Source of the DNA: Acetivibrio saccincola
GTDB taxonomy: Bacteria; Bacillota; Clostridia; Acetivibrionales; Acetivibrionaceae
Direction: 5' to 3'
DNA: 64,000 bases
Assembly (NCBI RefSeq): GCF_002844395.1
Contig: NZ_CP025197.1
Coordinates: 1,364,001 to 1,428,000, forward strand
Part shown: positions 26,685 through 35,743 of the stretch, piece after piece
Numbering within the stretch: the first letter of the stretch is position 1
Layout: every line of letters begins with the position of its first letter
The notes under the pieces: generated by a model
Seen by the model: only the letters and a program-made list of their open reading frames with translations
What the model was told of the DNA's origin: nothing
Database searches by the model: none
Program-made: the position numbers and the translations under genes

Positions 26685-27133
26685 GATTTTTCTCCCTATA
26701 AAAACTTAATTATGACCTGATAATAATTATACTTTAAAATTAAATCTCAGGCAATATTGAATTTTGAAATTTTTAATGCATTTTATGTAAAGTTAAAATA
26801 TATAAGTGGTACGTAAGTATAATGAAGCATAATTAATATATTCGACAAAATATGTGATATTATTTATTGGATTTTTTGCACAAAACATATTGAAGTATCC
26901 TTTTTGTGTGATATAATATTTATGGTCAAAATTACCAATGTACAATTTTTTACACGCCGGAACATAAAATGTATAAAACTACACTCCAGTGAAGTTTGAA
27001 AATGAACAAATCTTGTTTTAAATTCAGTATACATGCACAGTACAGAAGAGTACCGTGATGGACTTAAAAAAATGGTTTGAGCAGTGTTGCCAAACCATAT
27101 TAAGTATAAAAAAAATAATGGGAGGTAATGTAT
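26685..27133. other. Divergent intergenic region with long leader
   Basis: About 450 AT-rich bases between divergent genes. On the plus strand TTGAAG (26890-26895), 16 bases and TATAAT (26912-26917) would give a leader of about 210 bases, which contains a hairpin of 8 base pairs, ATGGTTTG (27072-27079) with CAAACCAT (27091-27098). No ORF seen. Confidence 0.5.
26890..26917 (+). promoter_or_regulatory. Promoter of the surface-protein gene at 27134
   Basis: TTGAAG, 16-base spacer, TATAAT. Confidence 0.6.
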
Positions 27134-28875
27134 ATGTCGGTAAAATCAGGTAAATCCATTGTATTTGTGATGATCTGTGTTTTAGCTTTTATGTTAAGCT
27201 TTTCTGTAGGCGTATTTGCTAATGAATCCCCAAATATGGCACAGGTAGATAATATTTTTAATATTCAAGGGAGTAATGTTGTAATAAATAAGAATGTCAG
27301 GCTGTTTCAAGATACTGTGGTAACAGGGGATTTAGAGTTAAGGGATGGAGAGCTGGATTTAGACGGAAATGAGCTGGTGGTTACGGGAAACCTAATTCAA
27401 AAGGGCGGAAAAATTATATTAAATGGTGGAAAGTTAAAGGTAGAAAAAAACTACACCATAGGTAGTGAAGGAAATTATCCAAATGCTTATTTGATTATGA
27501 AAAATGAAAATGATTACATAGAGGTAAAAGGTTCTTTTGCAACATATTCAAGCAATTCCCATATTGGTTGCCTAACGGCAGGTACATTGGAAGTAAAGGG
27601 GGACTTTTTTCAGAAAGTTGACATTAAAAAACAAAATATTCAAGCAACTTCGTTGCAAGTGGAACACATAAAGTAATACTAAGTGGGGAAGGAATTCAGA
27701 CAGTGGAATTTAACAGCCCTGAGTACTCATATATGAACATTCTTTGCATAACAAAGCCTTTAGAGGAAGGATATAATTTTGTTAATGAGGAAAGGGTATG
27801 GGTTAAGCTGGTTAAGCTTTTTGATGAAGTACCAAAAAACTCTTTAGAAGTAAATGTTTTAGGTGATGGTTTTGTAAAAGAAAATGGTGAGAAAGTTCTT
27901 CCAACAAGTTATAAGTATGATTATGAAGTTGGAACTGAGATTGAGTTAGAGGCCTATGCAAATGAAGGTTCTGAATTTGCTTATTGGGAAGATGGAGAAA
28001 TTGGAAGAATTTTATCCGACAATCCTATATATAAATTAGTAATGGGAACAGGTGCAAAACTTAAAGCAGTATTTTATCAGAATCCGGAAGTTGCAGAGGA
28101 ACTTATGGTGGTATTTAAGGACAGGAGCGGAAGAATACTTCAGTCTACCAAAGTACCTAAAAATGAGGAAGCTGTCGCTCCGGAAGACCCGTATATGACA
28201 GGATACAGGTTTGTAAGATGGAATCAGGACTTTAGCAATGTTGTATCTAATATGATAATAACACCTGTTTTTAGAAGACTGGCAGATCTTTATACAGTGA
28301 CTGTTACAGGCGGAGAATTGTCTACAGGCGGAACAGAAGGCCAGTACCTCTTTGATGTTCCGGTAGAGGTTGTTGCAAATAAAGCTCCGGAAGGCAAGAA
28401 ATTCAGTCATTGGGAACAAGACGGAATAAAAGTCAGCACAAAGAGTACATTTTCTTTCTTTGTACCAATGAGGGATACTAATTTGACGGCTGTTTTTGTA
28501 GATGAAAATGAAGTTTTAGATACAGAGCCTTTTATTGCACTGTCAGAAAACACTATTGTGGATCATCTTGACCATACGGTTATATTCACTGCAACAAGAA
28601 ATATGACAGAAGGGTATCAGCTGATAGAAAGCGGTATTATTCTCCTTAAATCATACGAAGAGTTGCAAGAACCTTTAACTTTAGAAACTGAGAATATAAT
28701 ACGTGGAAGGATAAGTAATGACTCTACCAGCCAGTTCTACGTACGCAAGATAAACGTGGAGGACGGTGCTACCTGGTATGGAAGGGCGTACTTAATTTAT
28801 AAAAATCCTGAAGGTGTTATAAAAACTGTATATAGTGAAGTAACTGCTAAGGGGACAATGGAGTTACCGGAATAA
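27134..28875 (+). pseudogene. Secreted InlB-repeat surface protein, interrupted by a frameshift
   Basis: Two adjacent frames form one protein of about 580 residues if one base is restored in the A6 run at 27626-27631. The first part has a signal peptide (ending GVFA) and parallel-beta repeats (VVTGDLELRDGELDLDGNEL). After the shift the reading TKYSSNFVASGTHKVILSGEG joins in phase to VEFNSPEYSYMN. The second part contains InlB/Flg_new-type beta-repeats (KNEEAVAPEDPYMTGYRFVRWN, FSHWEQDG, TNLTAVFVDEN) and a C-terminal beta domain. Without the shift the first frame stops at 27674. Start ATG 27134, behind GGAGGT. Possible role: surface adhesion. Real disruption and sequencing error cannot be told apart here. 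Confidence 0.75.
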
Positions 28876-28921
28876 TACCCGGAGGATTGTTATATATAAA
28901 AGGGTACAGGAGGTGAATGAA

Positions 28922-29032
28922 ATGAAAAAGCCGTATGAAAAGCCAGAAATGGAGATAACAAAGTTTGAGACAGAAGATATTGCATACAGCGCACCCGATC
29001 CATCGGGAATGGATGGGATAGATCTTAATTAA
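28922..29032 (+). CDS. Candidate RiPP precursor peptide, 36 residues
   Basis: ATG 28922 follows a perfect Shine-Dalgarno (AGGAGGTGA, 28908-28916) by five bases. The peptide starts KKPYEKPEMEITKFETEDI, a leader type common in small Firmicutes peptide genes, and ends with a short, acidic, glycine-containing tail (residues 21-36: YSAPDPSGMDGIDLN region, with two Ser and four Asp). There is no Cys or Thr in the tail. A terminator follows at once, and then PqqD-like, kinase, peptidase and exporter genes. Leader recognition by the PqqD-like protein and modification of a tail Ser or Asp are inferences. Confidence 0.7.
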   Translation: MKKPYEKPEMEITKFETEDIAYSAPDPSGMDGIDLN

Positions 29033-29043
29033 GGAAAAGCATA

Positions 29044-29073
29044 AAAACAGGCAGAAAATTCTGCCTGTTTTAC
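29044..29073 (+). terminator. Terminator/attenuator behind the peptide gene
   Basis: aaaacaggcaga-aaat-tctgcctgtttt, a strong 12-pair hairpin ending in four Ts. It probably limits read-through, giving much peptide mRNA and less enzyme mRNA. Confidence 0.8.
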
Positions 29074-29119
29074 GCATTTTCAGGGGCACGGAAAAAACAA
29101 AAGAGGGAGAGAAAAGATT

Positions 29120-30277
29120 ATGAGATTAAAATTTTGCGTTGTTTTGGTAATGGCAGTATTTATAATAAATATCATGGCAGGGATTAATGTTTTAGCACAA
29201 AATGAAGTTATAGAATTTGAAGACGTACATGAGGGTTTTTGGGCAAAAAGTGCAATAGACAATTGGAAAGACCGTGGGGTTATAAAAGGGGACGGAAAAA
29301 AATTCAATCCAAATAATAATATTACCCGTGCAGAGATGGTGGCAATTTTAAATAATATTTTTAAATTTCATTTGAAAAAAGACAACCCTTTTTCTGATGT
29401 GAAAGAGGGGGCGTGGTATTATGATGCTATAGTTAAAGGGTATGCCCATGGTGTAATTAAAGGAAATTTTGATGAAAAGGGGAGTTTGGAGGCAAGACCC
29501 AACCACCCGCTAACCCGTGCTGAAGCGGCGGTTATATTTACCAATGTGTTTTCTATAGAAGTTCCTTCTGACTATAATTCAAATTTTAAAGATGAAAACT
29601 TGCCTAAATGGGCGGAAAACTCAATTTTTGCCATGGAGGCAGAAGGGTATATACGTGGAAAAGAGGAAGGATTCTTTGATCCTTACAGCAATTTGACAAG
29701 GGCAGAGATGGTACAGATTCTTGACAATGTTATAAAGCTTTATTTGGATGCTCCCGGTGAGTACAGTGCAGATGTAGCCGGAAATGTAGTTATAAGTTCA
29801 CCCGGGGTTAAGCTTAAAAATATGAAAATAGAGGGAAATCTTTATTTGGCAGAAGGAATTGGAGACGGGGATGTTGAATTTGAAAATGTCTATGTGTCCG
29901 GTATCACCTTTGTAAGAGGTGGAAGTAGTGATGGAATAAAAGCAGTAAACAGTGTTTTTGGGACGGTTAAAATTGAAAAAGAAGGAATAAATCTAAATTT
30001 AGCTAATGAGGATACCGGGGATTTGGAAGAGGAAAAAGAAGATATACCGGCAGCTCCGGAAGACAGCGAAGGTCAAAAAGATGAAAGGGGACAAAATTCA
30101 AAGGAACAAGGCGCAGAAAACCAAGAATCAGAAAACAAGGGAGATAAAGGAACACCGGGAGAGAATAAAGATGAACAGGGTACTTCGGGAGAAAATAAAG
30201 ATGATCAAGGGTCAGGGGGTGAAGAGCCGGATGATGGTTCTCACTACCCTGATAGTGCGGATATAGTAGATTATTAA
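29120..30277 (+). CDS. SLH-domain surface protein of the peptide cluster
   Basis: A 385-residue exported protein. Signal peptide 1-26 (ending VLA). Three SLH domains follow directly (about 30-90, 92-150, 153-212), with ITRAEM, LTRAEA and LTRAEM, so it is anchored through its N-terminal part. Residues about 218-295 look like a small beta-solenoid (VVISSPGVKLKNMKIEGNLYL). The last 85 residues are a hydrophilic, disordered Glu/Asp/Lys/Gly tail with GENKDEQGTSGENKDDQG repeats, ending in HYPDSADIVDY. It sits between the peptide gene and the kinase gene with short gaps, so a role in displaying or receiving the product is possible. Confidence 0.85.
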   Translation: MRLKFCVVLVMAVFIINIMAGINVLAQNEVIEFEDVHEGFWAKSAIDNWKDRGVIKGDGKKFNPNNNITRAEMVAILNNIFKFHLKKDNPFSDVKEGAWYYDAIVKGYAHGVIKGNFDEKGSLEARPNHPLTRAEAAVIFTNVFSIEVPSDYNSNFKDENLPKWAENSIFAMEAEGYIRGKEEGFFDPYSNLTRAEMVQILDNVIKLYLDAPGEYSADVAGNVVISSPGVKLKNMKIEGNLYLAEGIGDGDVEFENVYVSGITFVRGGSSDGIKAVNSVFGTVKIEKEGINLNLANEDTGDLEEEKEDIPAAPEDSEGQKDERGQNSKEQGAENQESENKGDKGTPGENKDEQGTSGENKDDQGSGGEEPDDGSHYPDSADIVDY

Positions 30278-30295
30278 TTGGGAGGATTTATTTAA

Positions 30296-31009
30296 GTGAA
30301 CCGTTATAAAATAGCAGATTTGGGAGTGGAAATTAAGTCTTTGCAAAAAACTTTAAAAGTACGCTCTAAGCCATATATTTGCGAAGATGTAGAGAAGATA
30401 GACATTAAAATACATATGACAGATGAAAAATTACAAAAACTAAAGGATAAACATCCTACACTTGGTTTTGATGAATTGGAGTATATTTTTACGGGCTTTG
30501 CTTTTTCAAATTCTATTTTGGATTTTAATGGTTTTTGCCTGCACTCTTCTGCAGTTTCAGTGGACAATAAGGCGGTGCTGTTTTCTGCACCCTGCGGCAC
30601 CGGAAAGTCTACTCATACAAGGCTGTGGACAGAGTATTTTGGAAAAGAAAAAGCAGTTATAATAAATGATGATAAGCCTGCTATCCGGCTGGTTGATGAT
30701 GTTTTCTATGTATACGGGACGCCCTGGAGCGGAAAGAACAATATACATACCAATATAAAAGTGCCGCTGCAGGCAATTGTGTTTATCCGGCAGTCTGAAG
30801 AAAACTATGTTGAAGTTTTAAAAAGCAGGGAAGTCGTTAAACTTTTGATGGAACAGAGTTTGCGCCCGTTTAGCAGTAATAATGATGGAATGAGTAATTT
30901 ACTTAACATTTTAGATTCTATAATTAAAAAAATACCCATATACCGTCTGGGTTGTAATATAAGTATGGATGCTGTAGAATTAATTTACAGTACTGTTAAC
31001 GGGGCGTAA
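30296..31009 (+). CDS. HPr-kinase-like protein (HprK-related, peptide-cluster type)
   Basis: A 237-residue protein related to the C-terminal domain of HPr kinase. P-loop SAPCGTGKSTHT (about 96-107) and a following IINDDKPAIR segment with paired Asp are clear; the region with GTPWSGK fits the family. It lacks the HprK N-terminal domain and the HprK signature, so it is not the carbon-catabolite HPr kinase. HprK-like proteins occur next to PqqD-like genes in peptide-modification clusters, and in some lasso clusters they phosphorylate a C-terminal serine. Start GTG 30296, behind GGGAGGA. Cytosolic. Confidence 0.82.
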   Translation: MNRYKIADLGVEIKSLQKTLKVRSKPYICEDVEKIDIKIHMTDEKLQKLKDKHPTLGFDELEYIFTGFAFSNSILDFNGFCLHSSAVSVDNKAVLFSAPCGTGKSTHTRLWTEYFGKEKAVIINDDKPAIRLVDDVFYVYGTPWSGKNNIHTNIKVPLQAIVFIRQSEENYVEVLKSREVVKLLMEQSLRPFSSNNDGMSNLLNILDSIIKKIPIYRLGCNISMDAVELIYSTVNGA

Positions 31010-31019
31010 TTGGAAAGCC

Positions 31020-31092
31020 GAAAGCAGGGATAATGTGAAGGAGATAATGTAAAAGAGATAATATAAAAGAGATAATATAAAGGAAAGGGTAA
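31020..31092 (+). repeat. Short tandem repeat before the PqqD-like gene
   Basis: Three copies of a unit close to gagataatataaaa (15-16 bases), running into the ribosome-binding site of the next gene. Confidence 0.6.
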
Positions 31093-31098
31093 TTGGGT

Positions 31099-31365
31099 AT
31101 GAAAATAAAATCAGGATATATTATGAGGGAAGTTGCAGACAATTATGTTGTAGTTCCAACAGGCCAGGCTACAGTTGATTTTAACGGAATGATAACGTTA
31201 AATGAAACAGGAGCTTTTTTGTGGGAACAGCTGGCAGAGGAAAAGAATTTAGAAGAGTTGGTGGAAAATTTTACAAAAGAATATGATGTGGATGAGGCTA
31301 CCGCCAGAAAAGATATTATGGAGTTTGTTGAAAAACTTAAGGATGCTGATTTAATTGACTGTTGA
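31099..31365 (+). CDS. PqqD-like RiPP recognition element protein
   Basis: An 88-residue stand-alone PqqD-family (PF05402) protein: a winged-helix with TVDFNGMITLNETGAFLWE and a C-terminal DIMEFVEKLKDADLI helix. Such proteins bind the leader of a precursor peptide and bring it to the modifying enzymes. Start ATG 31099 with AAAGGAAAGGG upstream; the in-frame TTG at 31093 is too near that site. Confidence 0.87.
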   Translation: MKIKSGYIMREVADNYVVVPTGQATVDFNGMITLNETGAFLWEQLAEEKNLEELVENFTKEYDVDEATARKDIMEFVEKLKDADLIDC

Positions 31366-31414
31366 TAAATTGACTAATGATGAATGGATTAATAATAAAC
31401 AGGAAGATGATAAA

Positions 31415-31921
31415 ATGACTGACAGTAGATTGGGTCATGATAAACCGGCTAATAAAATAACCCTGTCTGAAGCTCATGAGCTAATTGAAGAGGTCTTAAA
31501 TAATGCTGGGGAAATTGTGCTTACAGTTATGGGAAATAGCATGTTTCCTATGCTTAGGCATGGAAGGGACAGGGTTTGTATTGTAAAGGCAAAAGATAAT
31601 GCTTTAAAAAAGTACGACATACTGCTTTTTATAAGGGATGACGGCAAGTACATACTGCACAGGGTTGTAGGTGTAAAGCCTGACGGGTATGTTGTGATTG
31701 GAGATAATCAGTATGTTAAAGAGTATCCGGTTAAGCATTCCCAGGTAATAGGGGTGGTAAAGGGCTTTTGGAGGAATGGAAAATATACATCCTGTGATGC
31801 TTTTTTTTATAATGTTTATGTAAGGTTTTGGAGCTGGACATTTTTTATACGGCTTATTTTGCACAAGGGGAAGTTGCTGTGCAAAAGATTAATTTGCATA
31901 TGGCTGAATGATTATAAATAA
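31415..31921 (+). CDS. S24/S26-family signal peptidase (SipW-like)
   Basis: A 168-residue serine peptidase. Nucleophile Ser in MGNSMFPMLRHG; ILHRVVG supplies a His in place of the Lys of classical signal peptidase I, as in the S26B/SipW type; the GDN box (VIGDNQY) follows. A hydrophobic stretch near the C terminus (about 130-150) may anchor it; no N-terminal membrane segment is seen, unlike typical SipW. It may cut the leader of the cluster peptide or mature the SLH protein. ATG 31415 is set by AGGAAG 8 bases upstream. Confidence 0.8.
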   Translation: MTDSRLGHDKPANKITLSEAHELIEEVLNNAGEIVLTVMGNSMFPMLRHGRDRVCIVKAKDNALKKYDILLFIRDDGKYILHRVVGVKPDGYVVIGDNQYVKEYPVKHSQVIGVVKGFWRNGKYTSCDAFFYNVYVRFWSWTFFIRLILHKGKLLCKRLICIWLNDYK

Positions 31922-32075
31922 TTAAAGAACTATAAATGGCTGAAAAATTATAAAAGATTAGATAATTATAAATGGTTAAAGAGCTATGATTAATTAAAGT
32001 ATTTGTGATTGATTAAAGTATTATAGATGGTTAAAGTGTTGTAAACCATTGAAGAATTGAAAGTGGTTGGACAAT
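31922..32075 (+). repeat. Degenerate tandem repeats in the peptidase-exporter spacer
   Basis: Many imperfect copies of a unit like tataaatggttaaagaactatga, about 20 bases long. No coding potential. It fills nearly the whole spacer. Confidence 0.55.
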
Positions 32076-32107
32076 ATAAAAGATTGAAAATTTGGGGAAA
32101 GTACAAA

Positions 32108-34018
32108 ATGAAGGACAAAAAAGTTTTGCTGTGGATATATAAAAACTCCAAATCCCAGATTTTAAGAATGGCTGTGCTGATTTTTACAAGCATAGTTGTA
32201 GCTGTAAACGGGGTAGCTATTGCTCTTTTTTCCCGTGGGCTTGTAGACAGTGCCCAGGAAGGTTCAAAGGACAGGTTGCTTGTACATGGATTTATTTTAG
32301 TTGCATTATTTTTACTGCAATTTGTATTAAGTATTACATGCAAGTATTTGCAAAAGGAAATGCAAAACAGACTTGAAAATTGCTACAAATCATATATGAT
32401 GAGGGAATATTCTAAAAAGTATTATTCACATTTGAGAAAATATCATAAAGGGGATATATTAAGCAGATATACAGCGGATACATTAAAGGTAAGTGAAGGT
32501 GTATCGTCAATTTTGCCTGATTTTGCGAAATTTATTACAAAATTGATTTCTGCATTTGCCGCATTGTTTATTTTAAATAAAATTTTTACATCGGTATTTA
32601 TAGCAGGCGGGATAGTGGTTATTTTTGTTGCAAGGCTTTTGAGAAACAGGGCTAAAAAGCTTCATAAAAATGTACAGGATAAAGATGCTTCATTACGTTC
32701 TTTTATTTATGAGCTTTTGGAAAATACAGTTGTTATAAAAGTTTTTAAAGCAGAAGATAGGATGCTGGATAAAACAAACCAACTGCAAAAGCGGCACTAT
32801 AATGCCAAAAGGGAAAAGAATATTTTTGATGTATTTGCTGCAACGGGTTTTTCTTTTATTTTTGCAATGGTTTATTTGTATGCACTTGTTTGGAACAGCT
32901 ACGGGCTTGTACATAATAATATAAGTTTTGGAACATTAGTAGCAATCCTGCAGCTTGTAGGCCATCTTCAGGCACCTTTTGCAGGGCTGTCCGGTCTTCT
33001 CCCCAAATTCTACGGGGTTTTGGCTTCAGCAGAGAGGATAATTGAAGTGGCTGAACTTCCGGAAGAACAGGGCTTAGAGGATGAAGATGCATATGATGTG
33101 CAGCAATACTCCGATATGGAATGTATAAAAGTACAGGGTGTGACTTTTGCATATGGTGAAGAAGAAGTTTTAAAAAATATATATCTGACAATTAATAAAG
33201 GCGATTTTACATTGGTATGCGGTGCTTCAGGTGCCGGAAAGAGCACTCTTTTAATGCTCCTTCTCGGGGTGTACTCCCCTGACAAGGGAAGGATTTTTCT
33301 AAAGACATATTCCAATGAAAAAATAGATATAAGCGGTCATGTGAGAAAATATTTTGCGTTTGTCCCACAAAAAAATATGATTTTTTCTGGGACTGTAAGA
33401 GAAAATATTTCATTTTTTAAGTCCGGTGCAACAGATGAAGAAATAATGGAGGCCGCTAAAATAAGCTGTGCAGATGAATTTATAAATTGGCTTCCTAATA
33501 AGCTGGATACTGTCATTGGAGAAAATTCTCAGGGACTTTCGGAAGGTCAGATACAAAGGCTTGCAATTGCAAGGGCAGTTTTGAGCGGTGCACCTATTGT
33601 GCTTTTAGATGAGGCAACTTCTGCATTAGATGAAATAACTGAAAAGAAAGTTTTGTTAAATCTAAAAAAGCTTACCCACAGGACTTTTGTTTTTGTAAGT
33701 CATAAAAAAACCCTCAGCTCCTTATATAATAATGTAATTAATATTAAAAAAGGAAAGGCTTATCAAAAAAGATATGATAATGGAAAAAGGTACAGGGACA
33801 AAAAAAGATATAATAAGGGATATGGCGGTACAAAGGAATATAGCGATAAAAAGGGATATAATGATAGGAAGGAATGCAGTGGTAGAAAGGCATATAGCGA
33901 TATAAAAGCATATAGCGACAAAAAGGGATACAGCGACATAGAGGTATACGACATTAGAGGGAGGTATGACGGAGGTGAAAAACATGGCAACAGGAGGGGT
34001 ACATATGAAGGGATTTAA
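32108..34018 (+). CDS. ABC transporter, fused permease-ATPase, with an unusual repeat tail
   Basis: A 636-residue type-1 exporter half-transporter. Six membrane segments lie within about 20-290. The ATPase has Walker A (CGASGAGKSTLL), Q-loop FVPQKN, signature LSEGQIQRLAIARA, Walker B IVLLDEATSALDE and a switch His in FVSHKK. There is no C39 peptidase domain. Normal homologues end soon after the LSSLYNNVINIKKGK helix; here about 80 more residues follow, rich in Tyr, Lys, Asp and Gly in imperfect units such as AYSDKKGY. The tail overlaps the start of the next gene. It probably exports the cluster peptide. Start ATG 32108, with GGGGAAAG upstream. Confidence 0.87.
   Translation: MKDKKVLLWIYKNSKSQILRMAVLIFTSIVVAVNGVAIALFSRGLVDSAQEGSKDRLLVHGFILVALFLLQFVLSITCKYLQKEMQNRLENCYKSYMMREYSKKYYSHLRKYHKGDILSRYTADTLKVSEGVSSILPDFAKFITKLISAFAALFILNKIFTSVFIAGGIVVIFVARLLRNRAKKLHKNVQDKDASLRSFIYELLENTVVIKVFKAEDRMLDKTNQLQKRHYNAKREKNIFDVFAATGFSFIFAMVYLYALVWNSYGLVHNNISFGTLVAILQLVGHLQAPFAGLSGLLPKFYGVLASAERIIEVAELPEEQGLEDEDAYDVQQYSDMECIKVQGVTFAYGEEEVLKNIYLTINKGDFTLVCGASGAGKSTLLMLLLGVYSPDKGRIFLKTYSNEKIDISGHVRKYFAFVPQKNMIFSGTVRENISFFKSGATDEEIMEAAKISCADEFINWLPNKLDTVIGENSQGLSEGQIQRLAIARAVLSGAPIVLLDEATSALDEITEKKVLLNLKKLTHRTFVFVSHKKTLSSLYNNVINIKKGKAYQKRYDNGKRYRDKKRYNKGYGGTKEYSDKKGYNDRKECSGRKAYSDIKAYSDKKGYSDIEVYDIRGRYDGGEKHGNRRGTYEGI
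33760..33985 (+). repeat. Imperfect ~24-bp repeats coding the exporter tail
   Basis: Units like gcatatagcgacaaaaaggga recur head to tail through the last 230 bases of the ABC gene. They look like the junction repeats seen elsewhere in the window, but here they are translated. Confidence 0.6.
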
Positions 34019-35213
34019 AGATGAAAAGCAGTATTTGATACATTTAATTTCTCAAGCCATAAATGAAAAAAAAGCAGGGAATCCTCCTAAAAATATAAAA
34101 TGGGAAAAACTTTATAATTTAGCTTGCTATCATAAAGTTTCCAATATTATTTATTACTCATTAAAAGACGTTAAGGATGAGTATAAAATGCCTGAAGATA
34201 TATGGCAGAAAATATACGGTGACTATAAAAAAGGTGTTGCAAAGGAAGCAGTGCAGCATGTAATGACAGAAATGATTTTGGAGGAATATGAGAAAAGCCG
34301 GATTGAATGCATACCCCTTAAGGGATATGTGTTGAAGGGTTTTTATCCTAAACCAGATATGAGGACAATGGGGGATATAGATATTTTCTATAATGAGAAA
34401 AAGACGCTTGAGGTACGGCAGGTTATGAAAAACATGGGGTTTAAAATTGTAAAGGTTGAGGATAAACATGATAAATACTATAAAAAGCCTTTTATGACTT
34501 TGGAGTTGCATAAAAGTCTCATGGGAAGGGCTGAGCCCTATGCTTCTTATTACAAAGATGTTTGGAACAAAATGAAAACAAGGGATAATTCCCAGTATAT
34601 ATATGAGTTTTCAAAAGAAGATTTTTATATTTTTTTACTGGTGCATTTTACAAAACACTTTGAAAACGCAGGGACAGGTGTCCGCAGTGTTCTTGACATT
34701 TGGGTGTATAATAAAAAGTTTTATAATGAGATGGATTGGGATTATATTAAAGATGAGCTTAAAAAAATCAAACTTGATGAATTTGAAGAAAATATACGTG
34801 GGCTGTCTGAGTTCTGGTTTGATAATAAGATGGTTGAAGGGAAAAAACGTGAATTTTATAATTTACTAGGGGAGTATATTTTATCAAGCGGTGTTTATGG
34901 AACAGTAAAAAATAGCGTTATGGTGGCTATGGGTAAAAAGTTTGAAGAAAAAAGCCATGGAAAAAAGTCAAAATATATTTATGGTTTTAGAATGATTTTT
35001 CCTGGCTTAGAGGGAATGAAAAAGAGATTTAATATTTTAAACAGGTTTCCCTTCCTTCTTCCTGTGTTTTGGGTGTTTAGGCTGGTGAGGGGTATTTTGT
35101 TTAGAAGGGAGAGGGCATTTAGAAGTGTAGAGTCGGTTTACTCTGCTTCTGATAAGGAGTTAGCGGAAATTCTGGATTTACACAAAAAGGCAGGACTTTA
35201 TAAAAAGGCTTAG
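34005..35213 (+). CDS. Uncharacterised nucleotidyltransferase family protein (NTP_transf_5 type)
   Basis: A 402-residue protein with the nucleotidyltransferase core CIPLKGYVLKGFYPKP and MGDIDIFY, where the two Asp would bind metal, then LELHKSL. This family is often found with PqqD-like and HprK-like genes. The transferred group and target are unknown; nucleotidylation of the peptide or of a protein is possible. ATG 34005 has AGGAGGGG five bases upstream; ATG 33984 with GGAGGTGA is a second possible start. Overlaps the exporter gene by 14 bases. Confidence 0.82.
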   Translation: MKGFKDEKQYLIHLISQAINEKKAGNPPKNIKWEKLYNLACYHKVSNIIYYSLKDVKDEYKMPEDIWQKIYGDYKKGVAKEAVQHVMTEMILEEYEKSRIECIPLKGYVLKGFYPKPDMRTMGDIDIFYNEKKTLEVRQVMKNMGFKIVKVEDKHDKYYKKPFMTLELHKSLMGRAEPYASYYKDVWNKMKTRDNSQYIYEFSKEDFYIFLLVHFTKHFENAGTGVRSVLDIWVYNKKFYNEMDWDYIKDELKKIKLDEFEENIRGLSEFWFDNKMVEGKKREFYNLLGEYILSSGVYGTVKNSVMVAMGKKFEEKSHGKKSKYIYGFRMIFPGLEGMKKRFNILNRFPFLLPVFWVFRLVRGILFRRERAFRSVESVYSASDKELAEILDLHKKAGLYKKA

Positions 35214-35221
35214 TAAGGAGT

Positions 35222-35743
35222 GTGTTTAATATAAATAATATAGATAAAAAAATAAGATATATAATGACGGTACTTTTTTGGCTGCTTGCAGTTATTTGGG
35301 CTATATCCATTATTTCATTTTCCAGCGACCCTGCTCATGTTTCGAAGGAAAAAAGTGGTTTGATTTTAGAGAAAATAGAGCCTTTTGTAGAGAGAATAAT
35401 TGAGGAATATGATATTAAATTTATTGATTTAGATGACCTTCATTTCTACATACGTAAATCGGCACATGTGTTTATATACTTTTTGCTGAGTGTTTTCATG
35501 TGTCTTGGGTGGAAGACCGTCAGGACAAGGGGGTTAAGGCCTTATTATATCACATGGGTTATGGCTACTGTTTTTTCTATTATAGATGAGATATATCAGG
35601 TATTTATTCCGGGAAGAAGCGGGGAAGTAAGAGATGTATTTTTAGATAATGCAGGTATTGTATTGGGACTTTTGTTTGTTGCATTTGGTATTTTTTTATT
35701 TAAAAAATTAAGAAGAAGATTAAAAAAATTAAGGAAAAATTAA
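35222..35743 (+). CDS. VanZ-like membrane protein
   Basis: A 173-residue protein with four membrane segments and the VanZ-family pattern: FSSDP, RKSAHVFIYFLL, SIIDEIYQVFIPGRSGEVRDVFLDNAG. VanZ relatives give low-level teicoplanin resistance or occur in surface-related loci; function unknown. Start is unclear: AAGGAG (35215-35220) is one base from GTG 35222 and ten from an in-frame ATA at 35231. Last gene of the cluster by orientation. Confidence 0.82.
   Translation: MFNINNIDKKIRYIMTVLFWLLAVIWAISIISFSSDPAHVSKEKSGLILEKIEPFVERIIEEYDIKFIDLDDLHFYIRKSAHVFIYFLLSVFMCLGWKTVRTRGLRPYYITWVMATVFSIIDEIYQVFIPGRSGEVRDVFLDNAGIVLGLLFVAFGIFLFKKLRRRLKKLRKN

Follow-up and report, generated by a model that had tools for sequence, protein, structure and literature searches.

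The closest described relatives of the gene cluster considered here produce Linear Polyphosphorylated Peptides (LPP), a type of ribosomally synthesized and post-translationally modified peptide (RiPP) first described in Bacilli (Popov et al., Nat Commun, 2026; PMC13381572). The genes lppAKBSDN of Paenibacillus alginolyticus, expressed in B. subtilis, encode in the order lppA-K-B-S-D-N a precursor, an HprK-like kinase, a discrete RiPP recognition element (RRE), a SipW-like peptidase, an MsbA-like exporter, and an NTP transferase (PMC13381572). By experiment, Ser3 of the core carries one to four phosphates in a kinase-dependent manner; LppS cleaves the leader in an RRE-dependent manner; and crystal structures of the RRE with the leader have been solved (PMC13381572). 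LPP clusters have a patchy, conflict-like distribution, a role in biofilm is named only as the authors' speculation, and the main text makes no mention of Clostridia, surface proteins, or radical SAM enzymes (PMC13381572). The same six families occur in the same order in a 64,000-nucleotide stretch of Acetivibrio saccincola (NZ_CP025197.1, positions 1,364,001 to 1,428,000; hereafter the window, in which all positions are counted), where a gene for an SLH protein is inserted between peptide and kinase. With a probability of about 0.72, this cluster encodes an LPP-related pathway of Clostridia, whose exported phosphopeptide would partner a surface protein encoded directly upstream.

Other known systems share parts of this gene set. 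Paeninodin-like phosphorylated lasso peptides also have an HprK-like kinase, a discrete RRE, an ABC protein, and NTP_transf_5, but the window carries an S26 peptidase in place of the macrolactam cyclase and the transglutaminase-like B2 protein, its leader motif has Tyr rather than Trp, and an Asn in its RRE takes the place of the Gly found in paeninodin RREs. The SynChlorMet cassette combines the HprK-like ScmC, the PqqD-like ScmD, and a radical SAM protein; the window kinase matches ScmC (3.6e-7) and the RRE, weakly, ScmD (3e-4), both below the cut-off, whereas the precursor differs and the window cluster has no radical SAM protein. The HPr-rel-A system (TIGR04352 / TIGR04353) has the same pairing of kinase with PqqD, and its matches are marginal (0.005, to HprK_rel_A, and 0.065). 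Finally, the S26 peptidase has the His-type fold of Bacillus SipW and archaeal-type signal peptidase I. It lies, however, in a RiPP-associated branch in which, judging from the sequence, the N-terminal membrane anchor is missing; six residues past the GD motif, those relatives that were inspected have Glu instead of Asp.

A variant precursor in an LPP-type gene set

The precursor read from the ATG at 28922 is MKKPYEKPEMEITKFETEDIAYSAPDPSGMDGIDLN. Its leader contains Y5-E-K-P8, a YxxP motif whose Tyr and Pro are invariant in six close relatives. Beyond it lie P8-x6-F15-E-T and P8-x9-E18-D19-I20, followed by S23 and an acidic 13-residue tail. The peptide contains no Cys, and a Pfam search with it gave nothing above the cut-off. 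By sequence, YEKP is the putative RRE-binding motif, E18-D19-I20 the presumed cleavage motif, and S23 the presumed phospho-acceptor. S23 lies 18 residues past Y5, the same distance as in the LPP consensus (Px9Fx[T/A]; YxxPxVLxHQxIxFETxxS; PMC13381572), and an ungapped alignment on YxxP sets EDI over the F-x-T/A cleavage site and S23 over the phosphorylated Ser of LPP.

The same architecture recurs widely. An iterated hidden Markov model (HMM) search gathered 102 related peptides, with Phe or Leu seven residues past the Pro in 94 of 100. EDI-type peptides number 77, most of them in Clostridia, and follow the pattern [Y/F]xxP-x9-[E/D][D/N][I/V]-xx(x)S; their tail is short and acidic. Among 77 peptides with a scorable motif, 70 keep a P-x9-[ED][DN][IV]-like spacing, a register equal to that of Px9Fx[T/A].

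The window shares with LPP the lack of a cyclase, the YxxP leader, the Asn/Asp/Phe contacts of the RRE, the SipW-like leader peptidase, a Ser shortly past the cleavage region, and a variable core. It differs in having P-x6-F-x-x-[E/D][D/N][I/V] rather than Px9Fx[T/A] and VLxHQxI, a very short acidic core, and a peptide gene directly behind the gene of a secreted protein, often one with a conserved C-terminal domain. Because the ungapped YxxP alignment matches and the published motif is absent, the pathway is best called LPP-type with a variant precursor, and not strict LPP.

His83, the P-loop GTGKST, and N124/D126 of the kinase are kept in 23 divergent relatives, and the top Foldseek matches of its AlphaFold2 (AF2) model (predicted local distance difference test, pLDDT, 67) are L. 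casei HprK/P (E 8e-6). No Pfam family matches the kinase above the cut-off, a sequence search of the PDB with it returned noise only, and a plasmid search for named kinase relatives gave three distant matches. In the RRE, N35, D72, and F76 align with N33, D70, and F74 of LppB (alignment to 9x8z); N35 and F76 are invariant in six of six relatives and D72 in five of six. The S26 peptidase, whose true start is likely the ATG at 31415, conserves Ser62 and His102 (open reading frame, ORF, numbering) at matching spacing and is thus of the His type. Its Asp117 sits in a GDN motif, with an uncertain correspondence to D93 of LppS.

Peptide and enzymes travel together. Five related genomes hold the peptide and K-B-S-D-N in synteny. 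Among 391 clostridial genomes, the peptide HMM matches 41 and the kinase is present in 39 of these (hypergeometric test, p = 9e-22), or in 34 of 36 when the window's own family is set aside (p = 4e-19). Named relatives include Herbivorax sp. ANBcel31 and Acetivibrio alkalicellulosi, as well as two Paenibacillus species, P. contaminans (L252) and P. doosanensis (L238), which carry YEKPQIEIEEYE precursors plus K-B-S-N. At 60 class-level loci, scanned to a distance of 6 kb from the kinase, a radical SAM maturase is found at one and a lasso cyclase motif at none; the local HMMs count too few B, S, D, and N genes where loci are divergent.

An earlier note on this DNA had described the gene set, Shine-Dalgarno sequence, and hairpin, all of which are in place (Table 1), as a cluster without any known RiPP maturase. 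That description is outdated: the published LPP machinery is made of an HprK-like kinase, an RRE, and a leader peptidase like SipW (PMC13381572). The peptide it envisaged, phosphorylated, cleaved, and exported, is probably right and is well supported, since the same gene set phosphorylates and cleaves in the Paenibacillus LPP system (PMC13381572); nucleotidylation, which it also raised, is possible. Neither outcome that the note had named as refuting its idea was found: the peptide is retained in syntenic clusters, the counts above show hardly any maturase near the enzymes, and the window's own genome lacks lasso B2. The core idea is probably a variant of the system described in 2026, and what surprises is that the peptide genes are paired with genes of secreted surface proteins.

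Pairing of peptide genes with secreted surface proteins

The gene that precedes the peptide is conserved and was overlooked in the earlier gene list. In the window it is split into two frames: the first ORF (27128-27676) encodes a signal peptide and the second (27703-28875) encodes Flg_new / InlB B-like repeats and a C-terminal beta domain. The frameshift lies near an A6 run at 27626-27631 and reflects either genuine damage to the gene, slippage, or an error in the sequencing; the homologues of relatives are intact. The gene ends 46 bp before the peptide start, and in all five syntenic relatives a secreted protein of 580-866 amino acids (aa) precedes the peptide by 2-125 bp.

This arrangement extends well beyond the syntenic cluster. 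EDI-type peptides stand behind a signal-peptide protein in 45 of 58 scorable cases; in the control set, 133 of 1,238 genes do so, which gives an odds ratio of 29 (p = 6e-30). This p-value assumes independent peptides and overstates the evidence because some are related. Signal peptides were called by a simple heuristic, applied identically to the controls, and the window itself was scored as a miss owing to its frameshift. The corresponding figure for radical-SAM-type peptides is only 6 of 23. In some clostridial genomes, dispersed paralogues far exceed enzyme clusters, with 17 peptide copies in one (G265), nine in another (G073), and eight in each of two more (G107 and G131); of the 17 in the richest genome, all 15 examined follow a secreted-protein gene. 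When the peptide HMM alone was used in two genomes, 20 of 20 dispersed paralogues (L275-L294) stood behind a signal-peptide protein of 222-971 aa, at gaps of -28 to +42 bp. Stop and start codons are often near or overlapping, which suggests translational coupling of the surface protein with the peptide. The dispersed precursors of the four genomes have longer cores. Such pairing seems unreported so far, as no report of it was found in the openly searchable literature, a scope that excludes subscription journals and the supplements of PMC13381572.

Many of the surface proteins preceding such peptides end in a homologous C-terminal domain of ~110 aa. Its AF2 model is an immunoglobulin (Ig)-like beta fold (pLDDT 92.6), and a fold search against the PDB returned generic Ig-like matches, none at E <= 0.001. 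The domain HMM was trained on peptide-linked proteins, and only newly found proteins count as evidence. Searching from the domain found new proteins in G107 and G265, and a peptide lies 17-37 bp downstream in four of the five shown (L315, L321, L322, and L324); the fifth, L319, is a partial match without a peptide. A. alkalicellulosi (G004) has four giant ORFs of 6,600-7,300 aa that end in this domain and have no adjacent peptide gene (C1:110478, C1:750489, C2:1299059, and C2:2074982).

The same results bear on the S-layer, to which the earlier note had tentatively tied the product. That link is partly right: the SLH gene was seen solely in the genus of the window and in one bacterium outside it (L198); the stronger and wider link is with the secreted protein directly upstream.

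Proposed pathway and alternative explanations

By analogy with LPP, the RRE would bind YEKP of the precursor, and the HprK-like kinase would place one or more phosphates on the Ser just past the leader, predicted to be S23. The RRE would also present the precursor to the SipW-like peptidase. The leader is most likely cut after E18-D19-I20, because EDI aligns gap-free with the F-x-T/A cleavage motif of LPP, but cleavage past FET (T17) is a second possibility, because P-x6-F-E-T and P-x9-E-D-I replace Px9Fx[T/A]. The ABC protein would export the short acidic phosphopeptide, the NTP_transf_5 protein may decorate the phosphate with a group derived from a nucleotide or a sugar, and the peptide would act at the cell surface as a partner of the secreted protein. 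The hairpin behind the peptide gene, which has only a short T run after it, fits strong expression of surface protein and peptide and weaker expression of the enzymes. Strong hairpins follow the peptide in nine of nine relatives folded.

A broader form of the proposal is tentative. Across Clostridia, the secreted surface protein and the RRE-dependent phosphopeptide could form a two-gene unit in which the exported peptide binds or is joined to the beta domain that ends the neighbouring protein. It is similarly conceivable, though short of probable, that such units, sometimes in 8-17 scattered copies per genome, depend on no more than one or two kinase clusters.

Several points weigh against an LPP-type phosphopeptide with a surface-protein partner. 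The published Px9Fx[T/A] motif is absent from the precursor, and phmmer scores the RRE better against the lasso proteins TbiB1 (8e-6) and PbaB1 (9e-5) than against LppB (0.077). In the LPP system, deletion of lppN had no visible effect (PMC13381572). A frameshift interrupts the upstream gene in the window, and most proteins with the C-terminal domain in the window's genus have no adjacent peptide, among them a second domain protein of the same genome (C1:2084926-2085318, in an ORF of 1,055 aa). One peptide may serve several domain proteins in this genus.

Among the alternatives, the one that survives best is an intracellular phosphopeptide switch that controls production or secretion of the surface protein, with no exported product. 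The one-to-one association of peptide and surface-protein genes, with frames that often nearly overlap, is compatible with such a switch, as is the hairpin that separates the peptide from the enzymes. However, the core cluster includes an exporter and a leader peptidase of its own, leader cleavage is documented for LPP (PMC13381572), and no sequence hint of a DNA- or RNA-binding target was seen, which leaves the switch unlikely.

A radical-SAM RiPP pathway with its maturase at another locus would make the clusters of an order-level sister clade ancestral. These clusters (L040, L041, L044, L051, L052, L053, and L056, together with L193) hold a PqqD protein, a radical SAM enzyme, and an HprK-like kinase, and mostly also S26, ABC, and NTP_transf_5 proteins; they apparently combine the LPP set and a radical SAM maturase in hybrid form. 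The radical SAM gene stands beside the RRE, and the leaders are homologous. Against this, the sister-clade kinases form one separate clade (support 0.999) and their precursors are Cys-rich (YVxPxxE...EERxAGSxC), unlike the Cys-free peptide of the window. In addition, the enzyme is present at only one of the 60 class-level loci, and the radical SAM matches of the window's own genome are remote and partial (best 1.5e-19), so this origin is very unlikely.

The chance is slimmer still that the product is a secreted signal or bacteriocin, encoded behind surface proteins as a mere operon convenience. The ABC exporter and the patchy distribution of LPP would suit it, but no immunity gene was seen, and neither the strength of the coupling nor the many paralogues dispersed behind secreted-protein genes is expected of it. 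Least probable is a degenerate or split lasso pathway that kept a paeninodin-like RRE, kinase, transporter, and nucleotidyltransferase while its cyclase and B2 protein were lost or moved elsewhere: the RRE scores and the HprK-like kinase and NTP transferase common to paeninodin clusters (PMC13381572) favour it, but the genome has a single PqqD and no Transglut_core3 (B2; PF13471), none of 60 loci has the cyclase motif within 6 kb of the kinase, the cluster has its own S26 peptidase, and the RRE has Asn where Gly would be expected.

Gene neighbourhood and significance

Table 1. Features of the LPP-type cluster and its surroundings, in window positions
Feature	Position	Strand	Evidence or remark
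Secreted surface protein gene, frameshifted ORF pair	27128-28875	+	single ORF in relatives
C-terminal Ig-like beta domain	28483-28872	+	alignment, AF2, genome search; no Pfam match
Shine-Dalgarno AGGAGG	28908-28913	+	8 nt 5' of peptide ATG
Precursor peptide gene, 36 codons	28922-29032 (stop 29030-29032)	+	read directly, sequence comparison
Hairpin (terminator or attenuator)	29044-29071	+	between peptide and enzyme genes; 12 pairs, fold z = -7.0
SLH-domain surface protein, 3 SLH repeats	29120-30277	+	PF00395 7e-22
HprK-like kinase, LppK equivalent	30296-31009	+	H83, P-loop GTGKST, NDD
PqqD-like RRE, LppB equivalent	31099-31365	+	PqqD 5e-21 (31093-31365)
SipW-like S26 leader peptidase, LppS equivalent	31355-31921	+	sigpep_I_arch 6.5e-10, SipW 3e-5
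MsbA-like ABC exporter, LppD equivalent	32057-34018	+	family match; repetitive C-terminal tail
NTP_transf_5 nucleotidyltransferase, LppN equivalent	33966-35213	+	3e-55; GDID motif intact
VanZ-family membrane protein	35222-35743	+	syntenic in same genus only; system membership uncertain

Two neighbouring genes have unusual ends. The SLH proteins share an acidic C-terminal motif, ADIVDY in the window and in L033, ADMVDY in L034, and ADIVDL in L198, which faintly resembles the peptide tail DGIDLN. The 3' end of the ABC gene holds an 18-bp tandem array of about seven copies (33810-33949), just 5' of the overlap with the nucleotidyltransferase gene. It encodes a YSDKKGYSD-like tail that is not seen in relatives and brings the protein to 653 aa.

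The EDI-type precursor motif defines peptides that the published LPP search motif would miss. The pathway also has a broad relevance, as its kinase family occurs in 111 of the 391 sampled clostridial genomes, many from gut and rumen among them. The one-to-one coupling with secreted surface proteins offers a concrete, testable role for LPP-type peptides. If the partnership is true, the RiPP product would serve surface proteins as their dedicated modifier or subunit instead of being a free natural product, and bacteria would have a further, new way to mature surface proteins.

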